Part shown: piece after piece, positions 27,197-59,806 of the stretch
Layout of the letters: each line of letters starts with the position of its first letter
Position numbering within the stretch: the stretch's first letter is position 1
Origin: Puniceicoccaceae bacterium
GTDB taxonomy: Bacteria > Verrucomicrobiota > Verrucomicrobiia > Opitutales > JAFGAQ01
Direction: 5' to 3'
DNA: 64,000 nucleotides
NCBI GenBank assembly: GCA_028285755.1
Contig: JANQOQ010000006.1
Coordinates: 310,001-374,000 of the forward strand
The notes under the pieces: generated by a model
Seen by the model: the letters and a program-made list of their open reading frames with translations, nothing else
The model's database searches: none
What the model was told of the DNA's origin: nothing
Translations under genes and position numbers: made by a program

Positions 27197-27198
27197 AA

Positions 27199-31490: not shown

Positions 31491-31495
31491 TTCAG

Positions 31496-32203: not shown

Positions 32204-32214
32204 AGTTAAAATTA

Positions 32215-33168: not shown

Positions 33169-33185
33169 TACTTAATAACGGCAAT

Positions 33186-34346: not shown

Positions 34347-34370
34347 AGATTCTCCCGAAATCACTAACTA

Positions 34371-40167: not shown

Positions 40168-41805
40168 ATGAATCAGTCAATCGAACAAAAGCCATCTGTG
40201 TCCCGAAAATGGCATTCTGTATCCTTTTGGTTGATGCTAAGTAGCTTTGTGTTGCTCGTGGTCATAAACCTAGCATTCAAGTTCATTAGTCTGGAAGATC
40301 CGTTTTCCGGCAACCATTTATTTCGTCAGTTGCAAACCCTGTCCACCATTGAAGCTTATCAAAACGATGGGATTGATCTTTTAAAGCCCCGGGCAAACTA
40401 CATTGGATATCCCGGTTATCTGTTGCTGGAGTTCCCCATTTATCAGGCCAGTATGGCTAAATTATCAGAATGGACTGGGAACGAACCCCTGCTAATATCA
40501 CGTGTATATAATCTTATAGTAGGCCTGCTCAGTGCCGTCATGGTGTATATCATTGCGCGGATTTGGACAGATCGGCTCAGTGCTGCCGGAGCGGTCCTGC
40601 TTTATCTGTTTACGCCCTTAAATATGATGTATCATTGGTCCACACTTTTGGACCCAACGGCTGTATTGTTTGCGCTATTCTCGTTTTACGTGTGTTATCA
40701 AATTATCGAAAACCGGACAAAGCGTATGGGGGTATATATGCTATTCGCGCTTTGCTCATGCCTGGTGGTACTATTAAAGCCGCTTTACTATCTGCCCGTT
40801 TGCCTTCTCTTTGCCTATGCATTAATTCAGCCTTTTATCGTCCGTTCTAGCCCTTTGGATTTAAAGAATTTAGGCATTTTTAAGCTGAATATCATTATTC
40901 CCGTGGGTGCTGCATTTCTGGTAATGTTGGGCTGGATGACCATTTCCCGCTCCTATTCAAGCGCTCAGGATATCAGTTCGCATATTGGCTGGCAAGCGAT
41001 GCTCAACCCCGGTTTTTATGTTACCATCACGTTACGCTATTTATTTTATATTCAAACTCCTCTGATCCTACTCCTGGGCATATTTGCGATCATTCTCAGT
41101 ACTGAAAACCCGAAGCTGAGAATATTGATGCTTTTGCTCGTGGCACTGCCTCCGCTGTATTACTTGCTGTTTGCAAACATAAATACACCTCACGATTACT
41201 ACTCCCTGATCCTGGTTCCGTTTCTCTGCATTGCAGCTGCTGTGGGTTTGCAACACTTATCCCGAAAATTGTTCGCCCATTCTGAAAATCCAAAATCGTT
41301 AATTATCCCCTCAGCGATCGTTGTCTTAGGATGCATACTGGGAACTTATCTTTACATAGCTAATTACTGGATTAAGCCCAATCTGGATAATCGCTATGCA
41401 GTAATTCATGCCTTCGCAGAAAATCGCCTCGAACCCTTCCAATACAGTCTGGTATATGTAAATACGGATGGAAACTTCCAGCTATCGGAGTATCTGGCAG
41501 AATCCCGAAGACATTTGATTCTGGCCGGCATTGGGCGACTCGATGAGAGTAAAATCAGGAAAACCATCAAGCCAATTTACGGGCCTCCTACCCTTTACGC
41601 ATTTAATCATCAATACGGTGAAATGCACTGGAAAAATGCTAACGTAAGCTCCTCAGATATACGGAAGGATGTGGATACCTACGAAGGCCATTTACGCTAC
41701 ATCATTTTCTACATGTTCGACCAGGAGTCTGTACCCGATGACATACCAGGAACCCCAATTCATAAATTCGACGATCTGGTAATCTATGATTTAGCAGGCT
41801 CATAA
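40168..41805 (+). CDS. GT39-like (GT-C) membrane glycosyltransferase
   Basis: 545 residues from the ATG at 40168 (MNQSIEQKPSVS); the track's TTG at 40126 would extend it into the divergent gene. About eleven hydrophobic segments. The first loop carries LEDPFSGNHLFRQLQT and then PGYLLLEFPIYQ, the arrangement of ArnT/PMT-like enzymes. ANINTPHDYYSLILVPFLC is a further conserved GT39-type stretch. The soluble C terminus from ~420 is acidic. It probably acts at the periplasmic face. It is one of two inverted genes in the locus, and its 3' end overlaps the convergent 632-aa gene by 22 bases. Confidence 0.7.
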   Translation: MNQSIEQKPSVSRKWHSVSFWLMLSSFVLLVVINLAFKFISLEDPFSGNHLFRQLQTLSTIEAYQNDGIDLLKPRANYIGYPGYLLLEFPIYQASMAKLSEWTGNEPLLISRVYNLIVGLLSAVMVYIIARIWTDRLSAAGAVLLYLFTPLNMMYHWSTLLDPTAVLFALFSFYVCYQIIENRTKRMGVYMLFALCSCLVVLLKPLYYLPVCLLFAYALIQPFIVRSSPLDLKNLGIFKLNIIIPVGAAFLVMLGWMTISRSYSSAQDISSHIGWQAMLNPGFYVTITLRYLFYIQTPLILLLGIFAIILSTENPKLRILMLLLVALPPLYYLLFANINTPHDYYSLILVPFLCIAAAVGLQHLSRKLFAHSENPKSLIIPSAIVVLGCILGTYLYIANYWIKPNLDNRYAVIHAFAENRLEPFQYSLVYVNTDGNFQLSEYLAESRRHLILAGIGRLDESKIRKTIKPIYGPPTLYAFNHQYGEMHWKNANVSSSDIRKDVDTYEGHLRYIIFYMFDQESVPDDIPGTPIHKFDDLVIYDLAGS

Positions 41806-43682
41806 AGCAGCGGCACCCATTGCACCCATTTATCCCGAGAGCCACTCCGGAAGTTCAGATAGCCTATCCACTCATAAAAACTACTCCAACTCTCACCATT
41901 AACCGTCATCGGTTTATCCAGGTTTAATCCATCCAGGGAGATCAAAGTATCCGTTCGGTGCAGGACCATATAGTTGCCCTCGTCCTTCAGCGTTTGCCAG
42001 TCATTGGGGTCGTAATCAATGCCCTGCGCTTCCAACCAATCTCTGTTAGAAGGAAAATTGTTAAATGCCACACTGATCGGCTCAGCGTTCTGGCTTTCCA
42101 GAAATTCGAGCTGTTGGCTGAGAATATGGCTCGAATTTGCATGTCCCAATAAATTCAAACTTGCTAGCAATATGCTGTTGATAAGCAACACTATCAAACC
42201 CAGGCAGGATAATTGCCTCCAAAAATACGCGCGCGTCACTACGCTCCAATTAAAAAATCCGATGCTACTCCGAATTTCACCATTCGACGGATGTAAAGTA
42301 GCGAGCACTAGCACAACCGGCAATAGCCATATGTGACCAATCCAACGCGCAAAATATGCCGGCTGGAAAAATAGTAAAAACCAAAGCGCAAGCGCCCACG
42401 CTATAACCCACCCATTGACTTTGCGCGCGGTAATAATAACTCCCAGGCTACTGCAAACGATTAAGGCTAGACCGAAGCCAAACCAGGGGCCAAACCCACC
42501 CATCCACAAACCGGGAAATGTATTGTAGTAAATACTCCATTCATTCTGTGTTACTTCGAAAGGCCACTTAAACTGATAACCCTGAGTAACCATACTTGCT
42601 TCGGATGTCGCATTGGCAAGGAATTGCAACGGACCAGGTAGCGAATTATAAATGGGCATCGATCTCAATAACTCGGGATTTCTGATAATGTAGGACAACT
42701 CATTTACCCTAAAGACATACTCTATCTTAAACGGTAAACCATCACCGGTTCGCCATAGACCGAGCTGGGAACCTAAAATGACCAATAATAACAAAGCAAC
42801 TGCACCTGATGATAGGCTAATTATCCAAAACCTCAGAGAACGCCGCACGCTCAAAACCAGCACCAGGAAGGTATATACGACCAGAAAACCAGTAAAGGCT
42901 ACACCCGACTTTTTAATCCCAAAGAGTAAAATCAAACTCAGCAGCCAGGCAGCGATAGAAAACACACTCACACGCTTCAAAAAACTGATACTGAGTAATA
43001 ACGACACGCTCGCCATGGAAGTGAAGTAAATATCCTCCCAAAAACTGAATAGTTGAAACAGTATAATGGGGTTGAGCGCCGCCAGTTTCGACAAGGTAAA
43101 TACGTAAAACCGATCGATATCAAAGCTGCGAAAGCAGTAATAAGCCGCCAAAAAGGGTAAAATCAGGAATAGGCCATTAATGCCCTTTGAGGCCTCAATA
43201 TTATTCCACAATGATGCATTAATCGCGCGATAGATATAGCCGAACTTGGTGCTAAATCCACTCCAGGTAAGCTTATCCAGCAGCACCTGGTTCTCCCATT
43301 CCGTGGTATTTACTCCCTGCTCAAAATAAGGGTCCTGTATGGGATTCCACCCCTTCTTGAAAGCAATAATGACCTCTTTTTGAATCAGCATGCCATCCCA
43401 ATTCACCCCATAAATATGCTTTGCCCATAAGCTATTTACGCCTATCAAAACGGCTATGAATGTTAAAGTCATGAGCAGCTGCTTTCGGTATTTTACGTGT
43501 AGAACAGCGACTATAAGGGAGGGAATGGCACCGAATATCACATGATAAGCGGTGATGCCAAAACCCAAAAAAAACAGCAGAAATGTCAATACAATGGTGG
43601 TTGTAAGACCTACTAAAAGGCTAAGTAATAATCGCAAGCTGAACTCCCCGAAATCAAACGGCTCACTGCTTGCATTATTCAT
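41784..43682 (-). CDS. Polytopic GT-C-like membrane protein, paralogue of the 619-aa protein at 4681
   Basis: 632 residues with around twelve transmembrane segments. The first large loop has VNWDGMLIQKEVI and GWNPIQDPYFEQG, then TKFGYIYRAIN, ALNPIILFQLFSFWED, KKSGVAFTG and, in the soluble tail, NFPSNRDWLEAQG. These motifs occur in the same order in the protein at 4681-6540, so the two are paralogues placed at opposite ends of the locus. Likely a periplasmic glycosyltransferase; the family is unnamed to me. ATG start; last gene of the 59806-41784 block. Confidence 0.6.
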   Translation of the reverse strand: MNNASSEPFDFGEFSLRLLLSLLVGLTTTIVLTFLLFFLGFGITAYHVIFGAIPSLIVAVLHVKYRKQLLMTLTFIAVLIGVNSLWAKHIYGVNWDGMLIQKEVIIAFKKGWNPIQDPYFEQGVNTTEWENQVLLDKLTWSGFSTKFGYIYRAINASLWNNIEASKGINGLFLILPFLAAYYCFRSFDIDRFYVFTLSKLAALNPIILFQLFSFWEDIYFTSMASVSLLLSISFLKRVSVFSIAAWLLSLILLFGIKKSGVAFTGFLVVYTFLVLVLSVRRSLRFWIISLSSGAVALLLLVILGSQLGLWRTGDGLPFKIEYVFRVNELSYIIRNPELLRSMPIYNSLPGPLQFLANATSEASMVTQGYQFKWPFEVTQNEWSIYYNTFPGLWMGGFGPWFGFGLALIVCSSLGVIITARKVNGWVIAWALALWFLLFFQPAYFARWIGHIWLLPVVLVLATLHPSNGEIRSSIGFFNWSVVTRAYFWRQLSCLGLIVLLINSILLASLNLLGHANSSHILSQQLEFLESQNAEPISVAFNNFPSNRDWLEAQGIDYDPNDWQTLKDEGNYMVLHRTDTLISLDGLNLDKPMTVNGESWSSFYEWIGYLNFRSGSRDKWVQWVPLLYEPAKS

Positions 43683-43694
43683 GTCATTTCTAAA

Positions 43695-46052
43695 TTAAAA
43701 ACTCTGAAAACTGATCAAAACCTTAAGCTCCTTATCTACAAAATCTGAAGAGTGGATAATGATCTGTGGATCCTGACCTGTAGAAAGTATATGCAAGTTA
43801 GAATCAGTGATCCCTACCCGCTCAGCAGTACCTGCAATCTCTATTCCAGCAAAATCATTATCCATATTTGCAGCGATAAGCTCTGTGTTGGTATGCATAT
43901 CGATAACGGCTATCTCACGAATGTGAAAGGTCTTGTAGTCATCGCAGGGATCCAGCCGTAACGAGTTGATCTCTCCCTTGCCGGTCAGCTTAAACTCCAA
44001 CTGGTTCATTGCACCCATAGAGTATGCCTGGATTATGGAGTTTTGCTCTGAAAATGCATCATCCACTGCCCAAAAAATCTGGAAGCGTTCCTGCATGAGT
44101 TCCTCAACCTTCATTTCGGACTCTTTCCATAGGCGGCTCATCACTTTAACCATTGTGGCCGCGTGGGATTGCCATGCGGATTGGTGCTTTTGGAGCATGT
44201 ATTGGATGAGGCTTGCCCGCTGGGGGTTGGCCACTGTGAAAACCATTGAACCGTAGTTCCGACGGTAATAAAATAATTCCATGGGCAACACATCGCCTTT
44301 TATGAATTTTTCATGCAGACCGAGCAGCAAATCCCAGTCTTCGTAAGAATTCATCGACTCATCATAGCCTCCTACCCTTTCCAAAACTGATTTGCGATAG
44401 AGATTTGTGCACTTGCCCTGCGTATTTAAAAAGGGCATAAGATTGGGCACATATCCTACCGGTATGTAGGGGCTGTAGAAGGCTCCGAAATTGCGCGTAT
44501 AACAGGAAACGTACCCCAAATCAGGATTATTACGCAACGCATCGATCGCGATTTTAATGTAATTGGGGTGGATTTTATCATCACTATCCAGGGGTAATAC
44601 GAAATCGCCGGTCGCAGCGGTGATGCCGGCATTACGTGCTGAACTTAAGCCTCCATTGGGTTTTTCGATCTTCGTAACTCCTTCGAGGGCATCAAATGTT
44701 TCATTCGCATTTTCACTGGTTGAGCCATCGTTGATTACAATGGTCTCTATATTCGGATAACTCGACAGGCGTATACTCTCCAGGGTCTCTTTGAGGGTGT
44801 CAGGCTGGTTAAAATACGGGACAACGACTGACACGAGCGGCTTTTCATCCGCCACCCAGTGGCGTGTATTCTGAGGGGCCTCATAATTTTGCATGATCCT
44901 CTGAATGACGCTCTCTGGCTCTGTGAGTTCCCTAGCACGCTCGATCGCCGCCTGTGAAATTCTTTGCATTTCAGAGATATCTCCAGTTATCCCCAAAAGG
45001 CGATTGGCAAGCGCTTCTACATCTTTAGGATCAATGGTATAACCGTTCACACCATCTTCAATAATCTCACCCATACCTCCTTGATCGGATGCAAAAACGA
45101 CGCATCCCTTGGCCATGGATTCCAGGCATGCATTTGCCCAGTTCTCCCATCGCGAAGGCAAAACACATACGGTCGTATTCTCGAGCAATGCACCCACTTC
45201 TGAGTATTCAATGCCTCCTTTGAAAACAATTTTATCCTTCCACTCTTCGGGAATTTGCTTCTCCAACACCTCAGTGTAAGTGCGATTCAGGATGTATGCA
45301 TTCCGTTCCTTACCATAGATTTCGAATCGGTAAGTATCATCGACTTCGAGCACCTTTTTCGCTGCTTCAATAAATACATCCACACCCTTCCTGACCTGCA
45401 CAGACCCCAGAAAGCGGATGGTCTTAATATTTTCGGTTTCCCAGGGCTTTTCTACATCCAGATAATCCAGACTTAGTGGATATGGACATTGAGCAATATC
45501 ACTGCGGCCTACCCGATTCTTAAAATAATCCGCCAATGAAAGCGAGGGGGACGTGACCTTATCTGCATAGCGAACGCTGTAATCTTCCATCTCAATGTCA
45601 CAACTCACCGACGCATGAAACTGAAACTCCTCATTAATCTTTTCCAGCAGCGAGAGGGGCGTGTGACACTTAACGATAAGTCGCGTATCTTTGAATTGGT
45701 TGAGTAGCTTTTTAGCCCTTATCGTGGTAAATCCCTCTCCGCAATACTCAGGAAATTCGACTACATCTACCGGGATTTCTTCAGTCAGCTGAAGGAGTGT
45801 GTAATAAACTCTTTCGGCATATTCATGGTTTGCGGAAAAGAAGCCTCCGACAAGCTCTTCTGGAGTCGGTACAGTCGTCCGCCATTCAATATCCGCATCG
45901 AGCTGATCTGCATTTTCAGCATTTACACAATCGGAAACCAATATGACCCGATGCCCCTGTTGAGCCATGGTTTTACAAACGTGATAAACATAGGTGCCTA
46001 TACCTCCTCCGGTGATTGGCCCATATTCCCTGCTGACGTAAACGATATTCAT
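43695..46052 (-). CDS. GT4-GT2 fusion glycosyltransferase with C-terminal beta domain
   Basis: 785 residues from the ATG at 46052 (MNIVYVSREYGP); the track's TTG adds five. Unit 1 (~1-385) is GT4: GGGIGTYVYHV glycine loop, IRFLGSVQVRKGVDVFIEA and EX7E in WENWANACLESMAKG. Unit 2 (~400-640) is GT2: LVSVVVPYFNQPDTLKETL, TIVINDGS and PLDSDDKI. The last ~120 residues are beta-rich (NSLRLDPCDDYKTFHI, DPQIIIHSSDF) and resemble the domain of the 197-aa and 440-aa proteins at 55678 and 58484. Two cytoplasmic transfer activities in one chain are likely. Confidence 0.82.
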   Translation of the reverse strand: MNIVYVSREYGPITGGGIGTYVYHVCKTMAQQGHRVILVSDCVNAENADQLDADIEWRTTVPTPEELVGGFFSANHEYAERVYYTLLQLTEEIPVDVVEFPEYCGEGFTTIRAKKLLNQFKDTRLIVKCHTPLSLLEKINEEFQFHASVSCDIEMEDYSVRYADKVTSPSLSLADYFKNRVGRSDIAQCPYPLSLDYLDVEKPWETENIKTIRFLGSVQVRKGVDVFIEAAKKVLEVDDTYRFEIYGKERNAYILNRTYTEVLEKQIPEEWKDKIVFKGGIEYSEVGALLENTTVCVLPSRWENWANACLESMAKGCVVFASDQGGMGEIIEDGVNGYTIDPKDVEALANRLLGITGDISEMQRISQAAIERARELTEPESVIQRIMQNYEAPQNTRHWVADEKPLVSVVVPYFNQPDTLKETLESIRLSSYPNIETIVINDGSTSENANETFDALEGVTKIEKPNGGLSSARNAGITAATGDFVLPLDSDDKIHPNYIKIAIDALRNNPDLGYVSCYTRNFGAFYSPYIPVGYVPNLMPFLNTQGKCTNLYRKSVLERVGGYDESMNSYEDWDLLLGLHEKFIKGDVLPMELFYYRRNYGSMVFTVANPQRASLIQYMLQKHQSAWQSHAATMVKVMSRLWKESEMKVEELMQERFQIFWAVDDAFSEQNSIIQAYSMGAMNQLEFKLTGKGEINSLRLDPCDDYKTFHIREIAVIDMHTNTELIAANMDNDFAGIEIAGTAERVGITDSNLHILSTGQDPQIIIHSSDFVDKELKVLISFQSF

Positions 46053-46067
46053 AGATCTGGATAGCAA

Positions 46068-48517: not shown

Positions 48518-49990
48518 CTATGATTGCACCTTAAAAGACTCTACGTAGTAATCATCAAAACTGACTATGTGGTGGCGTTGGCTGAGGTTATCCGAACGCA
48601 CCTCAAAAGTCAGACACTCCGCTATGCCGCAAATATGCTCGTGGTTTTCATAAGTGCCGTTGGAGAGACCAAATAGTAATGTGTAATCTCCATTCCGGAG
48701 CTTGGGAATTTTACAACCAAACTCAAATATGTAAGATTTATCCGCTTCAAGCGGATGTAGCTTAATTTTAGCCAGCGAAGTATTACAGCCAAAGATCAAG
48801 TTGCCTTTAATGTCGTAGATATCAGCGCAAACAATCGGCTGATCCAGGCTATCTTTGGCATTCAGGTGCAGGAAAATACGGACTTCCTCATCACCTTCGA
48901 ACAATTTCGATTGAGACGGATCTTTACGGTTTTGCAGTGCAGCGTGCAGGAACTTCACTTTCCCCGTGCCATCACAGGGCAAACCAGAGACATCCTCCCA
49001 GGGAATATTGGTGGGCAAATCAGATTTACCTTCGACAGTCAGATCCAGCTCGACCCTTTTGGTCTGCGATTCACTCTCCTCATCGTTGAACGAATCCGAT
49101 AATTCTGCTGCTTTTTCCGCAACCTGGTCGCTGCTTTCTTCGTCACCCGGTTCGGTAGTCACTCCGTAGTGCATAAAGTTGGAATACTCCAGAGCCACAG
49201 AGCGGGGATTGCCCTTTCGCACAACCTGACCTTCGTTGATCCACATTACCTCCTGGCAGAAATTTACGATGCTGGATAAATCGTGAGACACGAAGAGTAA
49301 GGTCGTATCATTTTCCTGCAGCTCTTTCATGCGGCGTATGCACTTCATGGTAAAGCGGATATCGCCCACTGCAAGTGCCTCATCGATAATGAGAATATCC
49401 GGATCAATCTCCGCCTGAACAGCAAATGCGAGGCGGACGCGCATTCCGCTCGAATAGGTCTTGATGGGTTGATCAATGAAATCTCCGATATTGGCAAACT
49501 CAGTGATCCGCTCAAAACGTTCGTCAATTTCATCCCGAGTCAAACCCAGGATGGATGCATTAAGATACACGTTTTCGCGCCCCGTAAACTCATCATTAAA
49601 ACCGGCACCCAGTTCCAGTAGTGCGGCCACCCTGCCCCTTGTAAACACTGTACCGCTTGTAGGGTTTAGAGTTCCTGCGATCATCTGCAGCAACGTGCTC
49701 TTTCCAGATCCATTTTTGCCGATAATGCCAAGACTCTGTCCCTTTCTCAGCTCGAGATCCACTCCCTGTAATGCGCAGAAATCGTGGTAATACTTATGCG
49801 TATTGTAGATACGCCCGTTGATCTCAGGATTATCCGGTTCGATATCACTATTTCCATTGCGCTTATGGGGAGTGAAAACACTCTCCAGTGCATCAAACAA
49901 AGGAGCCTTCAATCGTGCCGAAGGATCCCGCCAAATGCGGTAAGACTTACTGAGATTTTTGACTGAAATAACTACTTCCGGGTCATTCAT
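48518..49990 (-). CDS. Second Wzt-type ABC ATPase with extended C-terminal domain, no adjacent permease
   Basis: 490 residues. The ATPase domain has Walker A GKNGSGKST (~91-99), signature YSSGMRVRLAFA, Walker B ILIIDEALAVGD and the switch His in LFVSHDL. An acidic, Ser-rich linker (DEESSDQVAEKAAELSDS) leads to a Wzt-like C-terminal beta domain (~335-485: VKFLHAALQNRK, FEFGCKIPKLRNGDYTLLFG). It is longer than the Wzt at 25937. No Wzm lies beside it, so it may share the permease at 27199 or use one outside the window. ATG start; four-base overlap with the WecA-type gene upstream. Confidence 0.85.
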   Translation of the reverse strand: MNDPEVVISVKNLSKSYRIWRDPSARLKAPLFDALESVFTPHKRNGNSDIEPDNPEINGRIYNTHKYYHDFCALQGVDLELRKGQSLGIIGKNGSGKSTLLQMIAGTLNPTSGTVFTRGRVAALLELGAGFNDEFTGRENVYLNASILGLTRDEIDERFERITEFANIGDFIDQPIKTYSSGMRVRLAFAVQAEIDPDILIIDEALAVGDIRFTMKCIRRMKELQENDTTLLFVSHDLSSIVNFCQEVMWINEGQVVRKGNPRSVALEYSNFMHYGVTTEPGDEESSDQVAEKAAELSDSFNDEESESQTKRVELDLTVEGKSDLPTNIPWEDVSGLPCDGTGKVKFLHAALQNRKDPSQSKLFEGDEEVRIFLHLNAKDSLDQPIVCADIYDIKGNLIFGCNTSLAKIKLHPLEADKSYIFEFGCKIPKLRNGDYTLLFGLSNGTYENHEHICGIAECLTFEVRSDNLSQRHHIVSFDDYYVESFKVQS

Positions 49991-51861
49991 GACTGAATAT
50001 CAATTAATGTGCTGGTGAAGCGTCGTATTCTGGGTTTGCCTTTAAATGCGGTCGCAAAAGCCTCTACCTCTGCGTTTTCAATATTATCATCTGCAAGAAT
50101 GATCTCAGGGGTGCCCCCGAAATCGTAATCTTGCCAGTATTCAGGATCTCTAAAGGGGATCCCAAGCAACTTGGAGGATATCTTGGATTTGCTGGTATTG
50201 ACGATGCCTACCGCTGAATAATTGCCCCATCTTTCATAATTTTGAAAGATTTCTTCTGCGAGTACAATTGCTTCACGCCCATAGCCGTAAATTAAAATGG
50301 GGATTTTGCCGGTGGGACTGTGTGTCTTGCGAAACTTGAGCAGGAGATCATCAATAAACCGAAAACTGAAGCGCGATGAGATCATCCCAATAAAGTAAAT
50401 CATCGCAAAAATTACATAGGCTCCCCGGGAAAATCCATCTTCGAAACGAAAAACCAGTGTTATGATGGCAAGGCTGGCCGCCATGCCTACCATTGCAGCC
50501 AGTCCATAATTCAGTATATCCCGAAAACTCGCAAGACGCCAGCTGAACTCATAAACGCGAAATATAAAATTAGCGCTCAGACAACAGACGATGACCACCG
50601 GAAATGAGTTAATCAATGCATTGAGGATTTCCGGACTCACCCGAAAATCAAAGCGGATCAAGTACCCCCCATAGAGGCTCAGGCTGATCAAGAACACATC
50701 GAGAATCATTTTGATCAGGGGTACGCGGTAGGTGATTGAGGTTACCAACTGCTGCCAGCCCTCCTGGCGGATGGGTGATACCTGCATTTGCACCCTGGCC
50801 AGATAGATTGCAACCATCAACAGGGCTACGAGCGCTATACCGAATATAAATACCCCGATCGACGGGTAAATATCCATGAATATAGCTACCACCACACAGA
50901 GTGCAGATACGGAATACAGAAAACCAAGCGTTTGCCAGTTGGAGAGGCCTGACTGAGCCAACCGATGCGTCGAGTGATCCCTCCCCCCCACAGAGGGGCT
51001 TTGCCCACGCATTAAGCGCGTTATGGTTACCAGAGTTGTATCTAAAATCGGGATACTCGCGAGCGTGATGGCAATCAGGATCTGCATGTAGGTGCTCAAA
51101 AGCTCTATTCCCGCGCCTGCATAAAACCCGTTTAGATTGGAAGGCAAAGAAAATGCGGCGAGGGTGAAACCCAGAAACAGGCTTCCGGAATCTCCCATAA
51201 AGATTTTTGCTGGTGGCTTATTAAGCATCCAAAAACCCAATGCCGAAGCCACTAAAATCGCTCCCCATACCGCAGCAAAGTAATTAGGCCCCTGTTGGCC
51301 TACCAATGCAATAACCACCAAGCCTAATACACTGATGATGACCACACCGGAGCTCACGCCATCCATGTTGTCGAGCAGGTTGACCGCATTCATAATACCC
51401 ACAAACCAGAGATAGGTGATTATAATATTGAATAGCTGATACGGGCTAACCACGAACGTTAAACCCAATAATACAACGAAGCTGATAATTAATAGCTCCA
51501 TCAACAATTTCACACCGGGTTTTAACTGGATGAAATCGTCTACCAATCCCAGTAAGAAGCATAAAGTGGCACCACCCAGAATAATCCAAAACTCCTTATG
51601 CTGAAAAACAAGCGACAGCAACCATTCTGAGCCAAAGTTTGCTATACCCTCCCCAAAGTAGATCGTGATCCACGCAACCGAGCCGACTATAAAGGCAAGT
51701 GCCATGCCCACACCCCCGTGAAGCGCGGTCACGTTTTCGTGCCAGCGGTCTGCCCGGGGATTAGCAACCCAGTTGTATCGGATTGCAATCCGCCTGACTG
51801 CAAGCACGGCAAAGTAGCTCAACAGGAAAGTTGAAAGAATAACTGTAATGGCAATCAGCAT
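49987..51861 (-). CDS. WecA/MraY-type phosphoglycosyltransferase fused to a CapD-like N-terminal module
   Basis: 624 residues. Residues 1-365 form a polytopic undecaprenyl-phosphate HexNAc-1-phosphate transferase: LVDDFIQLKPG (DD at 108-109), NLLDNMDGVSSG (161-172), FMGDSGSLFLGF (221-232) and the loop motif HSTHR (296-300). It would start glycan synthesis at the inner membrane. Residues ~378-510 hold four more helices like the membrane part of CapD/PglF, and ~519-624 a Rossmann domain (PILIYGYGREA). The SDR dehydratase domain that normally follows in CapD is absent, so the second half is probably regulatory or binding. ATG start. Confidence 0.83.
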   Translation of the reverse strand: MLIAITVILSTFLLSYFAVLAVRRIAIRYNWVANPRADRWHENVTALHGGVGMALAFIVGSVAWITIYFGEGIANFGSEWLLSLVFQHKEFWIILGGATLCFLLGLVDDFIQLKPGVKLLMELLIISFVVLLGLTFVVSPYQLFNIIITYLWFVGIMNAVNLLDNMDGVSSGVVIISVLGLVVIALVGQQGPNYFAAVWGAILVASALGFWMLNKPPAKIFMGDSGSLFLGFTLAAFSLPSNLNGFYAGAGIELLSTYMQILIAITLASIPILDTTLVTITRLMRGQSPSVGGRDHSTHRLAQSGLSNWQTLGFLYSVSALCVVVAIFMDIYPSIGVFIFGIALVALLMVAIYLARVQMQVSPIRQEGWQQLVTSITYRVPLIKMILDVFLISLSLYGGYLIRFDFRVSPEILNALINSFPVVIVCCLSANFIFRVYEFSWRLASFRDILNYGLAAMVGMAASLAIITLVFRFEDGFSRGAYVIFAMIYFIGMISSRFSFRFIDDLLLKFRKTHSPTGKIPILIYGYGREAIVLAEEIFQNYERWGNYSAVGIVNTSKSKISSKLLGIPFRDPEYWQDYDFGGTPEIILADDNIENAEVEAFATAFKGKPRIRRFTSTLIDIQS

Positions 51862-51899: not shown

Positions 51900-54677
51900 C
51901 TAAGCATGATCCAAATAGGGCTTCCAGGGATCATTGACCCTGGGCGGCCATGCAAGGAAGAACTGTGTGTCATACTTGGTCAAATTGGGGTTGTAGTAGG
52001 GGTCTGCTTCGATTTCCGCTGCCCAATTCTTGTACATGTATACGGATTCTTTTTCGAGTCGCTGTTTTTTCTCATCGGAAATCTCATAACCGCGAGAGAT
52101 GGATTCATGATGAATCAGTTTTGAGTAAGGAGTCCAAACGGTCTTCAATCCCAATTCACGCTTAGCCCGCAGGCAATAATCCACATCGTTGTATGCGACT
52201 GTTAATGCCTCCTCATTGAAGCCTCCTAACTTCTCGAAAACATCCTTACGCGTAGCGAGACAAGCTCCGGTCACTGCAGAATAGTTCTGCGTAAGGTGGG
52301 CACGACCCATGTGGCCGATGTTCCATTCGAGCTGATTTTTAAAGGCCTCTACTGCGACTCCCCCCACTCCCATTACAACTCCGGCGTGTTGAACGCGATG
52401 ATCCGGATAGAGCAGCCAGCCGCCGGCAGCCCCGATTTCTTCCCGCATCGCCTGGGAAACGAGTTCTTCCAGCCAGCCGCCATCAGTTACCTCGATGTCG
52501 TTATTCAAAAACAGGAGCACATCGCCCTGTGCTTGTTGGGCACCCCAGTTATTGATCGCAGAGAAGTTGAAAGGATGATCATAATCCAGAATGCGAACCA
52601 TGGGATTCCCCTGAAGGGATTTAAAGTATTCCAGTGTCTCCGGCTGCTCGGACTGGTTGTTGAGTAACAGGATCTCGTAGTGGGAATATTCGGACTGCTT
52701 TAAAATGCTATCGATGCATTGCCGGGTGACCTCCAACTGATCCCGGGTGGGTATAATTATGGAGATCTGGACGGGATTCGGCAGATGATACTTCACGCGA
52801 AATGCGCCTGCCCACATTCCTTCGCTCACCGTGGCGGCTATCCCCCGGTTTTTGAGGTGATTTTCGATCGCCTTCTGGCCTGCAGTTACGGCGTAGGGTT
52901 TGCTCTCTATGGACATGGCCGTGGAGCTTTCCAAATAACGCCAGTGATACAGGATACGGGGAATATGGCGGATTCGCGATGCGTCTGTCTTCTCAATAAA
53001 GCGCAGTGCCATATCCCAGTCCTGAGAACCAAAGAGGTCCTCCTGAAAGCCATTGATTTCGCGCAAGATCGAAGTGCGGTAAACACCGAGGTGAGAAATG
53101 CAGTTATGTGAAAGAAAAAGGTCGTGATTCCAGTCAGACTTAAAGTAGGGGTCGAAACGTACCCCCTTGGAGTCCACTTTATCCTCATCGCTAAAGATCA
53201 GGTCGGTCTCCGGATACTCATTCAGTTCGTTGGCAACGAAGTAAAGGGCGTGTTTGGGTAATAGATCATCATGATCAAGCAATGCACAAAACTCACCGGT
53301 AGCGACTTCCAGAGCACTATTTGTAGATGCAGAGATATGCCCATTCTCAGACCGAAAGACGATTTTGATGCGTTCGTCCTTTTTGGCATATTCCTCGAGG
53401 ATGTTTCTTACGTGTGGCTCGGGCGATGCATCGTCTGCGATGCATAATTCCCAATGCGGATATATCTGATCGCGTACCGACTCAATAACTTCGCAAAGTA
53501 ATTGCTCATCCGTGTTATAGACAGGCATCAGTATGGAAATGAGTGGCTTAGACTTCATCTCAGCCAAGTGTTTTTCGATCGCGCGTATATCCGCATTTGA
53601 GAGCGAATCAAAACATTCGACCCAGGTGCTGTAATCCTGATCCAGCTGCCGCTTGGGCGTGCGATTGATGCCGAGATTAATAACCAGGCGCTTGAAGAGG
53701 AATTCCTCAGCACCGTTTTCAAACTCCGCATAAATATCTATAATATTCTCTCCCGGACCGGTACTGAGTTCTACATTAAACCCACACTTGCGCTCCACGT
53801 TTAGCTGGTGTGCAAATTCGCTGACCACATCTTCCCGGGGCCACCCACTTGCACAGGGAATTCTTTTATCGCCCAGAATGGCCCACACTCTTTTAGGTGC
53901 ACGGCCTTCCTTATCAAAACACCATCCCCCGATATGAACCACATGACCAATTTCGCGGGATAAGTAAGATCTTGGCGTATCAAGGCCACAGCGGAATTCA
54001 TCCATCAGGTCTTTATTGGGCTCAAGCACTTTATCAAAACTTGCATAGGGCTTCTCCTCATCCAGCTTAAGCGCTGGAACTGGATCCGGGTAGCTGGGTT
54101 CAGGGGGCAATTCTGCGATATCCAAAGGAGGGATTACTTCAGGTATGGGTTTTTCAATCGATTTCTTGTTCCAGGCTTTGGACTTCAGGTCATAATATTG
54201 CCTGAGTTCCTCACGGTATCTGCTTTCGGCAGCAATGACCTGTTCCTTATTTTCAACGACTTGATTCTTCTCGTCGATTACGCGATGTTTGTAACTAATG
54301 AGCTCGTCCAGTTTACTGATATGCTCTTCGAGCTTTAAGTTGTGCTCCAGTAGTTTTTCAATCCGGCCTTGGAGAAATTGCTGACGCTGTTGCGAAACTT
54401 TTTCGATGTGCCTATGATGCTCGATATTGTGTTCAAGATCGCGGATATACTCATCTCTAACGGCGACCGTGTGCTTAACTTTTTCTACTTCTTCTCCGGA
54501 AATTTCAGTAATTTCCAAAAGTCGCTTTAACGTATCATGATAGATTTTGAGTTCACCGCGTTTTTCATCGAGATTTTTTAAAAGAATACCGACATGTTGC
54601 TCCCAATTATGCTCCAGGGATGCACTGAGCGCCCCGTTTTCTGTTTCATGCATGGGGTCTTGTGGGCTACTTTTCAT
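51900..54677 (-). CDS. Double GT2 glycosyltransferase with N-terminal coiled coil
   Basis: 925 residues. A long coiled coil covers ~10-165. A beta domain (~215-340: HIGGWCFDKEGRAPKRVW) like those of RfbC-type O-antigen enzymes follows. GT2 unit A (~380-620): LISILMPVYNTDEQL, CIADDASPE, ALLDHDDLLP, metal site complete. GT2 unit B (~650-900): QISIIIPTRDQLEVTRQCI, LLLNNQSEQPET, LFLNNDIEV and a C-terminal HHESISRGYE. Both units look active. It is a paralogue of the 56372-58405 protein. It could add alternating sugars, as in rhamnan synthesis (inference). ATG start. Confidence 0.84.
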   Translation of the reverse strand: MKSSPQDPMHETENGALSASLEHNWEQHVGILLKNLDEKRGELKIYHDTLKRLLEITEISGEEVEKVKHTVAVRDEYIRDLEHNIEHHRHIEKVSQQRQQFLQGRIEKLLEHNLKLEEHISKLDELISYKHRVIDEKNQVVENKEQVIAAESRYREELRQYYDLKSKAWNKKSIEKPIPEVIPPLDIAELPPEPSYPDPVPALKLDEEKPYASFDKVLEPNKDLMDEFRCGLDTPRSYLSREIGHVVHIGGWCFDKEGRAPKRVWAILGDKRIPCASGWPREDVVSEFAHQLNVERKCGFNVELSTGPGENIIDIYAEFENGAEEFLFKRLVINLGINRTPKRQLDQDYSTWVECFDSLSNADIRAIEKHLAEMKSKPLISILMPVYNTDEQLLCEVIESVRDQIYPHWELCIADDASPEPHVRNILEEYAKKDERIKIVFRSENGHISASTNSALEVATGEFCALLDHDDLLPKHALYFVANELNEYPETDLIFSDEDKVDSKGVRFDPYFKSDWNHDLFLSHNCISHLGVYRTSILREINGFQEDLFGSQDWDMALRFIEKTDASRIRHIPRILYHWRYLESSTAMSIESKPYAVTAGQKAIENHLKNRGIAATVSEGMWAGAFRVKYHLPNPVQISIIIPTRDQLEVTRQCIDSILKQSEYSHYEILLLNNQSEQPETLEYFKSLQGNPMVRILDYDHPFNFSAINNWGAQQAQGDVLLFLNNDIEVTDGGWLEELVSQAMREEIGAAGGWLLYPDHRVQHAGVVMGVGGVAVEAFKNQLEWNIGHMGRAHLTQNYSAVTGACLATRKDVFEKLGGFNEEALTVAYNDVDYCLRAKRELGLKTVWTPYSKLIHHESISRGYEISDEKKQRLEKESVYMYKNWAAEIEADPYYNPNLTKYDTQFFLAWPPRVNDPWKPYLDHA

Positions 54678-54696: not shown

Positions 54697-55647
54697 TTAT
54701 TGTGAATCGTCCTTCAGCTTATAGGTCTTCTTATTCTGCGATTCATAATAGGTTCTCGTCATCAGTTCAGCCAATAAACCATTCATAATGGAAAAAATAC
54801 CGACAGATGCGAGACCAATACACAAGATAGGCAGAGGCGTAGATGATAGGGTGCGTATATCTGCAAACTTCAGGTATAGAGCTATTATTCCCACTATGCC
54901 TGAAATCATCAGGTTTATGAGGCCGAACCCCCCAAAAATGTACATGGGCTTCTGAGAGTAATGATAGAGGAATTTTACAACGATCAGATCGAGTACGACC
55001 TTAAAAATCCGCTCCATCCCATAGTTGGATGTACCCTTGGTGCGCGGGTAGTGTTCTACGACTATTTCAGTGACCTTGCCCCCATTCCACGACGCATAAA
55101 TAGGGATAAACCGATGCATTTCACCGTAGAGGCGTACATCATTGATAGCAACGCGGCGATAGGCCTTCAATGAGCAGCCATAGTCATGCAAGGTGACGCC
55201 TGATATCTGTGATATGATCTTATTGGCCACCCTACTTAAAAAAACTCGCTTGATGGCCTTATCCTTGCGGTTCTTGCGCCAACCCGAGACCACGTCGTAG
55301 CCCTCATCCAGCTTTTCAAGCAATCGCGGAATATCGGCAGGATCATTTTGCAGGTCTGCATCCATAGGTACGATTACATCTCCCCGTGCCGCATCAAAGC
55401 CTGCCTGCATCGCGGCGGTTTGACCATAATTTCTAAGGAATCGAATCGCGATATAACGACTGTCTTCAGCAGCCTGTTGGGAAATGAGCTCCGCACTGTT
55501 ATCCCTGCTGCCATCATCGACCAAAAGCACTTCCCAGCTTGCATCATTCTCCGGTAGTACGGCATTCAGTTTTTCAAAAAGATCCGGCAAATTCTCAGAC
55601 TCGTTGTAAATGGGAATCACAACTGAAATCTTTATCTCGTTTTCCAT
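54697..55647 (-). CDS. Polyprenyl-phosphate glycosyltransferase, GtrB/DPM1-like GT2
   Basis: 316 residues from the ATG at 55647 (MENEIKISVVIP); the track's TTG at 55674 is nine codons earlier. The GT2 domain (~5-220) has ISVVIPIYNESENLPDLF, LLVDDGSRDNSAE, PMDADLQNDPADIP and VSGWRKNRKDKAIKR, all typical of GtrB/ArnC/DPM1. Two C-terminal helices follow (~230-300). The enzyme loads a sugar from UDP- or GDP-sugar onto undecaprenyl phosphate, giving a donor that GT-C enzymes use on the other side of the membrane. Several such GT-C genes are in this locus. Confidence 0.88.
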   Translation of the reverse strand: MENEIKISVVIPIYNESENLPDLFEKLNAVLPENDASWEVLLVDDGSRDNSAELISQQAAEDSRYIAIRFLRNYGQTAAMQAGFDAARGDVIVPMDADLQNDPADIPRLLEKLDEGYDVVSGWRKNRKDKAIKRVFLSRVANKIISQISGVTLHDYGCSLKAYRRVAINDVRLYGEMHRFIPIYASWNGGKVTEIVVEHYPRTKGTSNYGMERIFKVVLDLIVVKFLYHYSQKPMYIFGGFGLINLMISGIVGIIALYLKFADIRTLSSTPLPILCIGLASVGIFSIMNGLLAELMTRTYYESQNKKTYKLKDDSQ

Positions 55648-55677
55648 ATAAATAATCCAATTATGCGCACACAATGA

Positions 55678-56271
55678 TCAGCCATTGAGGTAACCCATGA
55701 CCAATCGATAGAGTACAACCAGTAACAATGATGCCAGTATCCCCCAGAATATACCCTTAACCAGGACCCAGACTCTTGAAGGAGCTTCACTGCTGGAGGG
55801 AATTTGGGTAAACACGAGGTATGGATCGATATCACCGGGTTTCACATTAAATTCAATGCCGCGGTCCAAGATATCATAGTCGGTGATTTGATTCATGGGG
55901 ATAATGGACTCGGGTCTTAGTTGATAGCTCTCATAACCACCGTAATAATTGACGACTATACGATCTACAAACACTTCGGCACCGCGATCATGCTCGATAA
56001 TATCCCAGCGCATCCCAACAAAGTGATCCGCATCCGGCAGGATAAACTGCAAATCCGTCAATCCTTCCGATTCAGGTATGGGCGAACGCACGGTTTCGTC
56101 TTCATTGTAGCCATTGCCCACATTGTAAAAGAGGCGACTGTCTCCGGGCTCTGTGATAGAAAGGCGTATATCAAGCGTATTGATGGCCAAGGGCGCATCG
56201 AGAGCCGTTTTAACCGCGATCGACATACATATAATCACCAGCAGAATCTGTATTCCGTATTTCTTAAGCAT
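55678..56271 (-). CDS. Small membrane protein: one TM-beta domain-TM unit, unknown function
   Basis: 197 residues. TM at ~5-22, extracytoplasmic domain ~33-158, TM at ~168-190, so both ends face the cytoplasm. The domain opens LDIRLSITEPGDSRLFYNVGNGYNEDE and closes with IDPYLVFTQIP. The same pattern occurs twice in the 440-aa protein at 58484 (ELATPGNVQVFWDSGEGYSE and FNLVDTETENVHLFYDTGYGI). I do not recognise a named family. Position right after the GtrB-like gene's start suggests an accessory of membrane glycan assembly, which is speculation. ATG start. Confidence 0.6.
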   Translation of the reverse strand: MLKKYGIQILLVIICMSIAVKTALDAPLAINTLDIRLSITEPGDSRLFYNVGNGYNEDETVRSPIPESEGLTDLQFILPDADHFVGMRWDIIEHDRGAEVFVDRIVVNYYGGYESYQLRPESIIPMNQITDYDILDRGIEFNVKPGDIDPYLVFTQIPSSSEAPSRVWVLVKGIFWGILASLLLVVLYRLVMGYLNG

Positions 56272-56371
56272 TGGTATACATTTACTTAATCATGTAACTT
56301 GAAGAGTATGGAACTCTAATTTGCAAACGTAAAGCTATCGGACTTTTTGGGGAACCAAGATTATGATACTC

Positions 56372-58405
56372 CTATTCATTCGGGAAAATGGGGATATTGC
56401 GATAGAGCTTTTGCTCATGGGGAGTGGTTAGAGTAAAGTCCTCTTTGAAACGTGTTAGCATCGGATTGTAGGCCGGATCATCAAGTAGAATGTTTTCCCA
56501 ACGCTTCCACATGTATTCTACTTCCTTGAGGTATCTTTGCTTTTTTTCGGGTGTGTCCTCAGGCCCTCGCGTAGCAGATTCATGGTGATACAGCGTCGCA
56601 TGTGGCGTATAGACATTATAGTAGCCACTTTCGTAGATTTTAATGCATAAATCCACATCATTGTAGGTGATGGCGAGGTTTTCGGCATCAAAGCCGCCAA
56701 CCTCTTCGAAAATCGCTTTACGCATCAAAAGGCATGCAGCGGTAAGGGCGGTGTAGTTATTTACTAATTTTGCACGCTTTGGATCGACTGCACCTTCGGG
56801 TTCCAGAAAGCGGTATGCATGGGCAGCAACATGACCCACGCCTAAAATCACTCCGGCGTGTTGCAGTCGGTCATCCGGATAAAGTAAATGAGCACCTACC
56901 GCACCCACCGAAGGACGCACCGCATGGGCCATCATTTCATTGAGCCAATCCCCATCAATCACTTCCAGGTCGCTATTCAACAGGCAGATATAACTGCCCT
57001 CAGCATTTTCGACACCCCGGTTATTGATCGCCGCATAATTAAACTTACCGGGACAAGGGATGATCCTGCAGCCCTTCTGCGTTATTTGGTCAAAATACTC
57101 CACAGTTTCCGATTCTTTCGAATCATTATCGAGTATGATAACCTCATAATTGGGGTAATTCGTTTTTTCAAGTATGGTATCTACGCATACTTTAAGCACC
57201 TCAACCCCATCCCTTGTCGGAATAATGAGGGATACCTTGGGGCAATCTTCCGACTCGGGCAATGGGTATTGAATACGGAATGACCCCGACAGTTTTTCAT
57301 GGTGCACTGCCCTGGCATCCGGGTTTTCAGATTTAACAAAGTCGGTTATTACTGCTAAAACGTCCTTTGGCTGAACTGATGAATCGAAGCTGTAATATTG
57401 ATGGAAATAGATTCCGGGTAATCGCAGAATAGCATTCCTTTTTACTGAACTTGATAGACGAAGCTGCAAATCCCAGTGCTTCAGATCACTGGGGTAGTTT
57501 TTAAATCCTTCAAGAGCTGTAAATTGCTCTACTGTAATGAAATAATTGCGACCGATATAGGGTGTGCTTCGCAGGAAATCGGGATTCCATGCAGGTTTAA
57601 CTTCTGGATCGCTACGGTTACCCTGGACATCTACGCTATCATGGTCTGTGTAGATCAGACTCGATTGGGTTAAATCTATTTTCTCTAATGCGCGCTCCAG
57701 ACTGTCCGAAACGACATCTCCCTGATTCAAAAAGCAAATAAGGCCTTTCTTAATGCCTAATAATTGAGTGTTAATCGATGATACAGAAGGATTCTTCAAG
57801 CATATCAAACGTGTATCACCCAATGCTGATCTTTCATCGAATAATCCAACACTGTCTAACAAAATAATACGGGAAAGACTATTAAGTTTAAAAAGAGAAT
57901 CCAGTGTACATTGGAGAGCATCCAAATTTTTGTTATTCACCTGAATAACCCAATTTAGTTCTGGTAGCGGATATAGCTGGGTCTTCTTTTCAAAGATCGT
58001 TTCCATTACGGATTGCTCCATGCGATCAACCCAATCCTGGTAGTCCGTTTCAGGCTTATTTTCTATGAGAGTATGCGCTTTGCGGCTTAGCTGAAATACC
58101 CATAGTGATGTCAATTGGCGAGTCTCACCGGATTTGAATTTCACATGGATCTTAACATGTTTGATACCCGGTTTCGTGCTGAACGATCCCTCTACCCGAC
58201 AATAACCTAATGCCGTAGCCGTAAGCTGCAGCGGAATAGCACGCTTACCCAACCGTGCTTCCACAGCTACAATTTCATCTGGCGAGTTTGTGTATAAACA
58301 TCCTTTAATCTCGACATTCCCACGATTCAGGGTATAGCGCTTGGGCGTCGGCTTATAAAAAAGTAATTCTATGTCTAGGGAATCTGAAGCGCTTGATTTG
58401 GCCAT
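56372..58405 (-). CDS. Double GT2 glycosyltransferase with a degenerate first domain
   Basis: 677 residues from the ATG at 58405, preceded by GAGGG at usual spacing; the track's GTG at 58426 is seven codons upstream. A beta domain occupies ~10-110. GT2 unit A (~145-370) is decayed: the first strand reads ELNWVIQVNNKNLDAL and the DHDD metal site of its paralogue is replaced by FLNQGDVVSDSLERAL. GT2 unit B (~385-640) is intact: VSLIIPTRDGVEVLKVCV, ILDNDSKE, CLLNSDLEVI and HHESATRGPED. One active transfer site is therefore likely. It is a paralogue of the 925-aa protein at 51900. Confidence 0.8.
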   Translation of the reverse strand: MAKSSASDSLDIELLFYKPTPKRYTLNRGNVEIKGCLYTNSPDEIVAVEARLGKRAIPLQLTATALGYCRVEGSFSTKPGIKHVKIHVKFKSGETRQLTSLWVFQLSRKAHTLIENKPETDYQDWVDRMEQSVMETIFEKKTQLYPLPELNWVIQVNNKNLDALQCTLDSLFKLNSLSRIILLDSVGLFDERSALGDTRLICLKNPSVSSINTQLLGIKKGLICFLNQGDVVSDSLERALEKIDLTQSSLIYTDHDSVDVQGNRSDPEVKPAWNPDFLRSTPYIGRNYFITVEQFTALEGFKNYPSDLKHWDLQLRLSSSVKRNAILRLPGIYFHQYYSFDSSVQPKDVLAVITDFVKSENPDARAVHHEKLSGSFRIQYPLPESEDCPKVSLIIPTRDGVEVLKVCVDTILEKTNYPNYEVIILDNDSKESETVEYFDQITQKGCRIIPCPGKFNYAAINNRGVENAEGSYICLLNSDLEVIDGDWLNEMMAHAVRPSVGAVGAHLLYPDDRLQHAGVILGVGHVAAHAYRFLEPEGAVDPKRAKLVNNYTALTAACLLMRKAIFEEVGGFDAENLAITYNDVDLCIKIYESGYYNVYTPHATLYHHESATRGPEDTPEKKQRYLKEVEYMWKRWENILLDDPAYNPMLTRFKEDFTLTTPHEQKLYRNIPIFPNE

Positions 58406-58483
58406 AAAGCCCTCAACACAACACACTGTTTCAAATTTTCAAAGTAATTCTTAGCAAAATGAAAATTCGCTTGTAAGGGAACT

Positions 58484-59806
58484 CTAGCTATTTTGCTGCT
58501 TAATTAATTCCCCAATGTCCTGCCCTTCGCTGAGCAGTCGATTCCAAAAGGCGGTCGCAATAAAAGCAATACTGCCAAAGAGCAGAAAATAAAAGAATGG
58601 AAGTGGAAACTGAAAATGCTGCTTTGGAAAATAATCTGAATGCACGAAATAGAGAACCGGGTCACCCCCCTTTGATTCAAAAACCAGGCGATTCTCGGAA
58701 ATATCCCGGATACTTATTTGATCGTTATGATCCCACTTATGGAACGAGAGCGGTGTCCAGTTTCCCGGACTTCTACGTACCTTAAAATCCTCAAGAATCG
58801 CTATGCCCGGTCGGTTGAGTACATCGAGTCGCAATTGCTGAATCTCCAAATCATCCAGAGTTATGAGAATATTATGGTTCAACTGCCCCTCCTCAAGCCA
58901 CAACAACTCAGATTCGGTGGCGTTAATTCCGTAGCCGGTATCATAAAACAAGTGAACATTCTCCGTCTCAGTGTCGACCAGATTAAAGCGCAATTCGATC
59001 TGGTTCTGATAAGACTCAGGTGCATTCCAATAGGCGATGAGCCCAATAATAATCGCAAAAACCAAACAGCTGATCCAATTGAGGAGTTTCATACGAGCAC
59101 TCCATGCGTCACACCAATTCTGGAATCGCTGCCTTTGCTTTTCCAGATACATCATTCCGACTAAAAATCGCAAAGTGACAAACTTCCAAAACTCATGAAA
59201 AAAAATCGAGATGCCTGCCGCAAGAACAGCCACTACCAATAAGCTGAGGATGACGTTGAATATTTTTTGCTGCAATGAGGGGAGATCCGGTATCTCACTG
59301 ATAATAAAATGAGGATCTCCATTTCCGCTTATGGGTTTTACGACAAGACCGCCTGACCTCGTATCCGCAACGAGATTCGCAATTCCACTGGAAGCCATAT
59401 CCTCGGTAAATATGTATCTGCGGCTAAAAAGCTCCCCCGAATATTTCAAGCGGAACTGGTAGATATCGATAAGCCCGTCGTTGTCAGCCGGATCGATGCG
59501 CAAACTCTGAACGCCCGTAAAATCGAATGGATTGGACCATTGAGTCGGAGTTTCAGCCTCGGCTACTGCAAATCGCAAAGACTGTGCTTCTGAATATCCC
59601 TCTCCTGAATCCCAGAAGACCTGCACATTCCCCGGTGTGGCAAGCTCAATCTCTATTTCAATGCTGCTGGAGTAAAAGCGAAAATGCCAGACTACCAATG
59701 TAGCGAGTAGAAATAACGCAATGGGAAACCAAAAGCTGATGTAATACCTGCGTCTAAGCTCTTCAGCTTTCATAAGTTGAGTATCTCTTTCGCTTGGCAT
59801 TTTCAT
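58484..59806 (-). CDS. Membrane protein with two TM-beta domain-TM units, unknown function
   Basis: 440 residues. Unit 1: TM ~24-41, domain 48-172, TM ~182-203. A basic cytoplasmic loop (~205-242) follows. Unit 2: TM ~243-260, domain 268-392, TM ~401-421. Each domain begins with an IE-x-E/LRF strand then VFWDSGEGYS or LFYDTGYGI, continues with LRIDPADNDG or LRLDVLNRPG, and ends with GDPHFIISEIP or GDPVLYFVHSDYF. It therefore looks like a tandem duplicate of the 197-aa protein at 55678. No known family name comes to mind. As first gene of the 59806-41784 block it may have a structural role in the assembly complex (inference). ATG start. Confidence 0.6.
   Translation of the reverse strand: MKMPSERDTQLMKAEELRRRYYISFWFPIALFLLATLVVWHFRFYSSSIEIEIELATPGNVQVFWDSGEGYSEAQSLRFAVAEAETPTQWSNPFDFTGVQSLRIDPADNDGLIDIYQFRLKYSGELFSRRYIFTEDMASSGIANLVADTRSGGLVVKPISGNGDPHFIISEIPDLPSLQQKIFNVILSLLVVAVLAAGISIFFHEFWKFVTLRFLVGMMYLEKQRQRFQNWCDAWSARMKLLNWISCLVFAIIIGLIAYWNAPESYQNQIELRFNLVDTETENVHLFYDTGYGINATESELLWLEEGQLNHNILITLDDLEIQQLRLDVLNRPGIAILEDFKVRRSPGNWTPLSFHKWDHNDQISIRDISENRLVFESKGGDPVLYFVHSDYFPKQHFQFPLPFFYFLLFGSIAFIATAFWNRLLSEGQDIGELIKQQNS

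Follow-up and report, generated by a model that had tools for sequence, protein, structure and literature searches.

What do small membrane proteins of no named family contribute to a run of glycosyltransferase genes? The question is raised by a 64,000-nucleotide stretch of a 4.25-Mb Verrucomicrobiota genome (hereafter the window; G000:C15:310001-374000), in which a GT2 gene lies between the genes for a 197-residue and a 440-residue protein. These consist, respectively, of one and two copies of a unit in which a beta-rich domain is enclosed by two transmembrane (TM) helices. Judged from sequence-level evidence, the two proteins probably act (at a rough probability of 55%) as docking or acceptor-binding subunits that resemble carbohydrate-binding modules (CBMs) and are supplied in trans to a GtrB/GT-C glycosylation machine. 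The description of the unit in an earlier note, made from the letters of the window alone, was too narrow: the module is widespread, and the TM-flanked unit is only one of its forms.

Sequence signature of the unit

The division of the two proteins into one and two units, proposed in the earlier note, is borne out by an independent profile that detects all three. This profile was built from seven single-unit proteins and excludes both window proteins and the orthologs of the 197-residue protein; at Z=1e6 it gives independent domain E-values (iE) of 1.8e-21 for the 197-residue protein, 1.5e-22 for unit 1 of the 440-residue protein and 1.3e-7 for unit 2. Searches with single sequences are weaker than the profile (3.3e-5 in each direction). 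Chance likeness of TM-flanked domains is ruled out, as the matches of the independent profile span the beta core. The three motifs named previously are present in every unit: F-W/Y-D/N-x-G-x-G-Y/I as FYNVGNGY, FWDSGEGY and FYDTGYGI; the LR-D/W-D strand as MRWDI, LRIDP and LRLDV; and the closing (G)DP motif as IDPYLVF, GDPHFII and GDPVLYF.

A fourth copy of the domain, overlooked in the earlier note, forms the soluble C-terminus of a 790-residue glycosyltransferase of the same gene run. Independent profiles detect it at 0.0026 and 0.0009 (Z=1e6), and an alignment that itself contains this copy (A3) does so at an E-value of 3.9e-33. The family is delimited by FxDxGxG(F/Y), R-x-D(P) and (G)xDP within an all-beta domain, features that are found in all three units and, at the level of sequence, in the soluble copy. 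The statement that no named family is recognizable holds: the window units have no Pfam or NCBIfam match at cut-off, nor does any of 24 domain copies (best E-value 0.0033, in a single member), and a sequence search of the units against the PDB gave nothing usable.

By hydropathy scan, the basis of all TM counts given here, the 197-residue protein has two helices and the 440-residue protein four. Lysine and arginine residues precede TM1 and occupy the middle loop, a distribution that fits an extracytoplasmic location of the beta domains, which probably face outward.

Predicted fold

AlphaFold2 models the 197-residue protein as a helix, about ten strands and a second helix (mean predicted local distance difference test score (pLDDT) 90.0, predicted template modelling score 0.78). 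Unit 2 of the 440-residue protein is likewise predicted to be helix, all-beta domain and helix (mean pLDDT 86.8), with the strand order of the 197-residue protein; it was modelled alone because the alignment of the full-length protein (A4) put tandem relatives out of register. The inputs were alignments of window and database-locus sequences, and since the two alignments are mostly shared, the models are not fully independent. A common beta fold is predicted directly for two of the three units, and is assigned to unit 1 by sequence homology only. The predicted all-beta domain (pLDDT 87-90) has the beta-sandwich character of a CBM.

Linkage to GtrA, GtrB and GT-C genes

Regular co-occurrence with GtrB and GT-C genes, which the earlier note had named as support, is observed: domain genes recur beside GtrA/GtrB and GT-C-like genes. 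In eight loci, a same-strand gene for a protein of 10-15 TM helices abuts a solo unit, against a baseline of 10.6% of open reading frames (ORFs) with at least nine TM helices in the examined loci, a figure that includes the partners themselves; the eight loci are related, and hence do not represent independent events. The partners in seven of them belong to one polytopic family, to which the region following the domain in a fused protein (F_L045; G003:C386) is homologous (1e-14 to 1e-39). One polytopic family thus occurs both fused to the domain and split from it, as in a Rosetta-stone pair. Among the seven partners, one matches the PMT family (PF02366) at 5e-6.

GtrA genes show the same association, with all four of those found in seven genomes adjoining a domain-bearing gene: one in G002, two in G004 and the only one of the window genome (C15:681667-681987), which sits directly between a GtrB-like gene and one for a domain-fused polytopic protein. 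The full neighbourhood of GtrB-like GT2, GtrA and GT-C genes is present at G000:C15:680-684 kb, G002:C6 and G004:C67. Partial versions occur at G004:C168 (GtrA and a polytopic gene) and in G025 (GtrB and GtrII), the latter within an unbroken run of Wzm - GtrII (PF14264, 6e-22) - GtrB - solo unit - Wzt. A Wzm/Wzt operon of G043 contains both a solo unit and a relative of the 632-residue polytopic protein of the window. Within the window genome, four of nine domain loci lie no more than 3 kb from a GT2 gene, compared with 4.7% of the genome (P 5e-4), and three of eight do so once the window cluster is excluded (P 0.005). This context points to a likely role in extracytoplasmic glycosylation from polyprenyl-phosphate sugars. 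The units might instead be independent envelope or structural proteins that are merely located in glycan loci, in keeping with their lack of an evident catalytic residue or assigned function; however, the occurrence of one polytopic family in fused and split form, and the adjacency of all four GtrA genes to domain genes, make this very improbable.

The cassette in the window genome (G000:C15:680679-684130; L101, L015) has the order gtrB-gtrA-GT-C, and its GT-C-like protein carries the unit N-terminally.

Distribution, host proteins and the permuted form

A search with an alignment of 20 copies detects the domain in 51 of the 388 Verrucomicrobiota genomes that were sampled, and a scan of a genome collection with a tighter alignment adds Lentisphaerota, Bacillota (Lysinibacillus, Paenibacillus, Eubacterium and Neobacillus) and one deltaproteobacterium. 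Across these lineages it is apparently unnamed so far and is joined to many glycan enzymes. Polytopic hosts include YfhO (2.9e-75), DUF2142, DUF6056 and, below threshold, DUF6020 proteins, with GT-C-like polytopic hosts carrying the domain N-terminally. The unit also anchors enzymes of the AlgX and GDSL types, and soluble hosts comprise GT2/GT4 transferases, methyltransferases, a methyltransferase-coiled coil protein and PVC sulfatases (named from their sequence alone). Two adjacent, tandemly repeated genes of an Opitutaceae genome (L079:9848-15976) encode proteins of about 1020 residues that are YfhO-like by eye, each with an N-terminal unit. G002 encodes two transferases with a soluble domain copy (L092:2363-4747 and 4963-7320).

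The sulfatase-type form begins with the GxDP hairpin. When its profile is compared with the core of the membrane type, the score is 105.6 for a single copy of that core and 124.5 for a duplicated copy, with the match running through the junction; the higher score is a sign that the membrane and secreted forms are related by circular permutation. The permuted domain is C-terminal in the sulfatases (L069, L074, L075 and L076), sometimes as two in tandem, and has no Pfam match in the region tested.

A Neobacillus protein (L091:5101-7686) combines a methyltransferase, a domain copy and a coiled coil in a layout like that of the chain terminator WbdD; related proteins occur in Lysinibacillus and Eubacterium (L081, L088). 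Such a WbdD-like host, together with the solo and tandem units in Wzm/Wzt operons (L117, L121, L128 and L129), raises the alternative that the units are analogues of Wzz-like polysaccharide co-polymerases (PCPs), sensing or counting the polysaccharide in the Wzm/Wzt pathway for chain-length control or export coupling. The TM-periplasmic domain-TM topology and the placement in polysaccharide loci are indeed those of Wzz/PCP chain-length regulators. However, the periplasmic domain of these regulators is helical, whereas the units are all-beta without long helices, and most solo units adjoin polytopic GT-C-like genes rather than polymerases, so that a Wzz-like role appears improbable. Membership of the Wzz/PCP family itself is excluded by the all-beta fold and the absence of a Wzz profile match in Pfam.

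Proposed role in acceptor recognition

In GtrA/GtrB biology, GtrB-like enzymes produce the undecaprenyl-phosphate sugars, flipping is the proposed task of GtrA-type proteins, and a GT-C enzyme transfers the sugar outside the cell membrane (PMC11127046, PMC8035078). In the window, the GtrB-like enzyme would charge undecaprenyl phosphate with a sugar, the lipid-linked sugar would be flipped across the membrane, and a polytopic GT-C, for which the 632-residue protein is a candidate, would transfer the sugar to a polysaccharide exported by the Wzt system. The beta modules of the 197- and 440-residue proteins would hold this polysaccharide near the GT-C active site. We read the module as the component of the GT-C step that serves docking or acceptor binding, joined to the enzyme in some systems and provided separately in others. 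The GT-C partner at this locus, the flippase and the binding of glycan are inferred. The soluble form on PVC sulfatases counts as a further link to glycans.

Several known systems offer parallels. In mycobacterial EmbB, an N-terminal periplasmic jelly-roll domain is inserted between TMH1 and TMH2 (PMC7305291), and the fused relatives described here share this layout of Emb proteins, in which a beta domain (the PDN) lies between TM1 and TM2 of a GT-C that uses polyprenyl-phosphate sugars; by sequence layout, the window proteins correspond to that part alone. The module differs from the Emb PDN in also occurring as separate and tandem proteins, no Emb chain was found in the PDB sequence search, and Emb is absent among the 50 fold matches listed. 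ORF12 (GT136) and AftD likewise bear a beta domain on an extracytoplasmic GT-C, the former in an O-antigen pathway of the Wzt/WbdD type, with its CBM binding the acceptor lipopolysaccharide (PMC11127046). That CBM differs from the units in being C-terminal, after TM11, and covalently attached. Domain genes sit in cassettes of the GtrA/GtrB/Gtr(GT-C) type, and YfhO of the Gram-positive YfhO/CsbB/GtcA systems can carry the domain. These systems differ from the present one in having no described fourth, CBM-like subunit, though one review suggests that acceptor binding by small GT-Cs may require a second protein (PMC8035078). No report of a separate acceptor-binding subunit, or of the domain on sulfatases, was found in the open-licence literature.

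Several observations weigh against a role in acceptor binding for GT-Cs. The CBM of ORF12 is dispensable for activity (PMC11127046). Fusions to AlgX-type and GDSL proteins indicate that the module is not restricted to GT-Cs. No GtrA gene was found at the window locus, the only one of the genome being more than 300 kb away, so another flippase would be needed. The candidate GT-C has no Pfam match and its gene is not adjacent to those of the 197- and 440-residue proteins. Fold searches with the models of the 197-residue protein and unit 2 yielded no match to a solved structure at E<=1e-3, and a viral fold search gave no match. The sole CBM-like PDB sequence match, 4mgq, is marginal (E 0.001, domain iE 0.0044) and concerns the soluble form only; it is a domain of a GH10 protein that we take to be a CBM.

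In addition, the most probable fold matches are not CBMs but the PLAT-type sandwiches found in lipases and lipoxygenases (6e7k and 6n2w; probability 0.9-1.0). Because these matches are of high probability and none reaches E<=1e-3, docking to protein or lipid is a serious rival: rather than sugar, the sandwich would bind GtrB, the GT-C or the polyprenyl lipid at the membrane surface, as PLAT/C2-type sandwiches do, and hold the enzyme complex together. An assembly role of this kind would suit the position of the module between two TM helices and the variety of enzymes, cytoplasmic and extracytoplasmic, to which it is fused. However, the overall resemblance of the sandwiches is weak (TM-score about 0.3-0.36, root-mean-square deviation 5-9 A), with neither sequence similarity nor a common enzymatic context, and secreted sulfatases bear the module without a membrane or glycosyltransferase partner, which fits glycan binding better. 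On balance, a pure assembly module is rather unlikely.

A docking or acceptor-binding subunit of a GT-C machine remains the preferred reading. The copy on the 790-residue transferase suggests that the same glycan may also be recognized in the cytoplasm. It is tentatively conceivable that the units are the missing separate subunits for acceptor recognition by GT-Cs, with fused counterparts on other GT-Cs; reuse of the module in soluble form by cytoplasmic transferases of the operon would then let one kind of module hold the glycan both before and after its export. Whether small GT-Cs require extra proteins to recognize acceptor polymers is an open question in a review of multi-component transmembrane glycosylation (PMC8035078); the module supplies concrete candidates, with natural fused and split variants of one polytopic protein. 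Naming the domain would aid annotation of many membrane proteins that are now called hypothetical or DUF.

Evolutionary history and gene order

The earlier note took the arrangement to suggest duplication within the locus. A tree of 63 domains (125 columns; some rows are long, and much of the deep branching lacks resolution) does not support this: unit 2 of the window groups with unit 2 of other genomes and three solo units (support 96/91), the 197-residue protein joins its orthologs (99/95), and the closest neighbours of unit 1 are unit 1 copies of other genomes. As each unit clusters with its counterparts elsewhere, the copies separated before the family diverged, and recent within-locus duplication was rejected. 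Tandem proteins are encoded in G001, G002 and G004 and, as a separate occurrence, in Opitutaceae.

The minus-strand gene run reads 440-residue protein - 684-residue GT2 - 197-residue protein - GtrB-like GT2 - 925-residue two-GT2 protein - Glycos_transf_4 protein - Wzt with Wzt_C - 813-residue GT2 - 790-residue GT4+GT2 - 632-residue polytopic protein (Table 1). The two unit genes were previously said to flank both a double-GT2 gene and the GtrB-like gene; they flank the former only, the GtrB-like gene lying beyond that of the 197-residue protein. Within the flanked 684-residue protein, Pfam detects one GT2 domain rather than two, though a relative of the two-GT2 protein aligns with it over 622 residues. 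The order 440-residue protein - GT2 - 197-residue protein - GtrB is conserved in G004 and, extended by a GT2 protein of about 900 residues, in G002; in G001 it is seen in parts only, split by contig ends. Adjacency of the 197-residue and GtrB-like genes is conserved in all three.

Table 1. Domain copies and associated genes in the window.
Feature	Position	Strand	Basis
197-residue single-unit protein; TM residues 2-25, beta strands 31-154, TM 166-196	55678..56271	-	ORF, AlphaFold2, profile
440-residue tandem protein; four TM helices, two putatively outward beta domains	58484..59806	-	ORF, hydropathy, homology
Unit 1 of the 440-residue protein (TM-beta-TM)	59162..59749	-	Independent profile, tree
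Unit 2 of the 440-residue protein (TM-beta-TM)	58493..59089	-	Independent profile, AlphaFold2, tree
Soluble domain copy without TM helices, C-terminus of the 790-residue GT4+GT2 protein (43695-46067)	43698..44150	-	Profiles
GtrB-like GT2 protein with two C-terminal TM helices, adjoining the 197-residue gene	54697..55674	-	PF00535, 2.5e-34
684-residue GT2 protein between the 440- and 197-residue genes	56372..58426	-	PF00535, 2e-19, one domain
925-residue protein with two GT2 domains, same gene run	51900..54677	-	PF00535, two stretches
Wzt-type ABC ATPase with Wzt_C domain, same gene run	48518..49990	-	PF14524, 3e-19
632-residue polytopic membrane protein, candidate GT-C partner	41784..43682	-	27%-identical relative in the same Wzm/Wzt operon as a solo unit, G043 (L117)

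Other genes of the window are also of note. In the Glycos_transf_4 protein (49987-51861, minus strand; 624 residues), the Glycos_transf_4 membrane domain precedes a weak match to CoA_binding_3. A second Wzt ATPase with Wzt_C is encoded at 25937-28038 (minus strand), and a Wzm permease is seen beside this one only. Genes at 29818-35402 (minus strand) resemble a nonulosonic-acid pathway (NeuA-, NeuC- and NeuB-like by eye), and in G312 (L129) a tandem-unit gene lies near relatives of the NeuB- and NeuC-like genes of the window.

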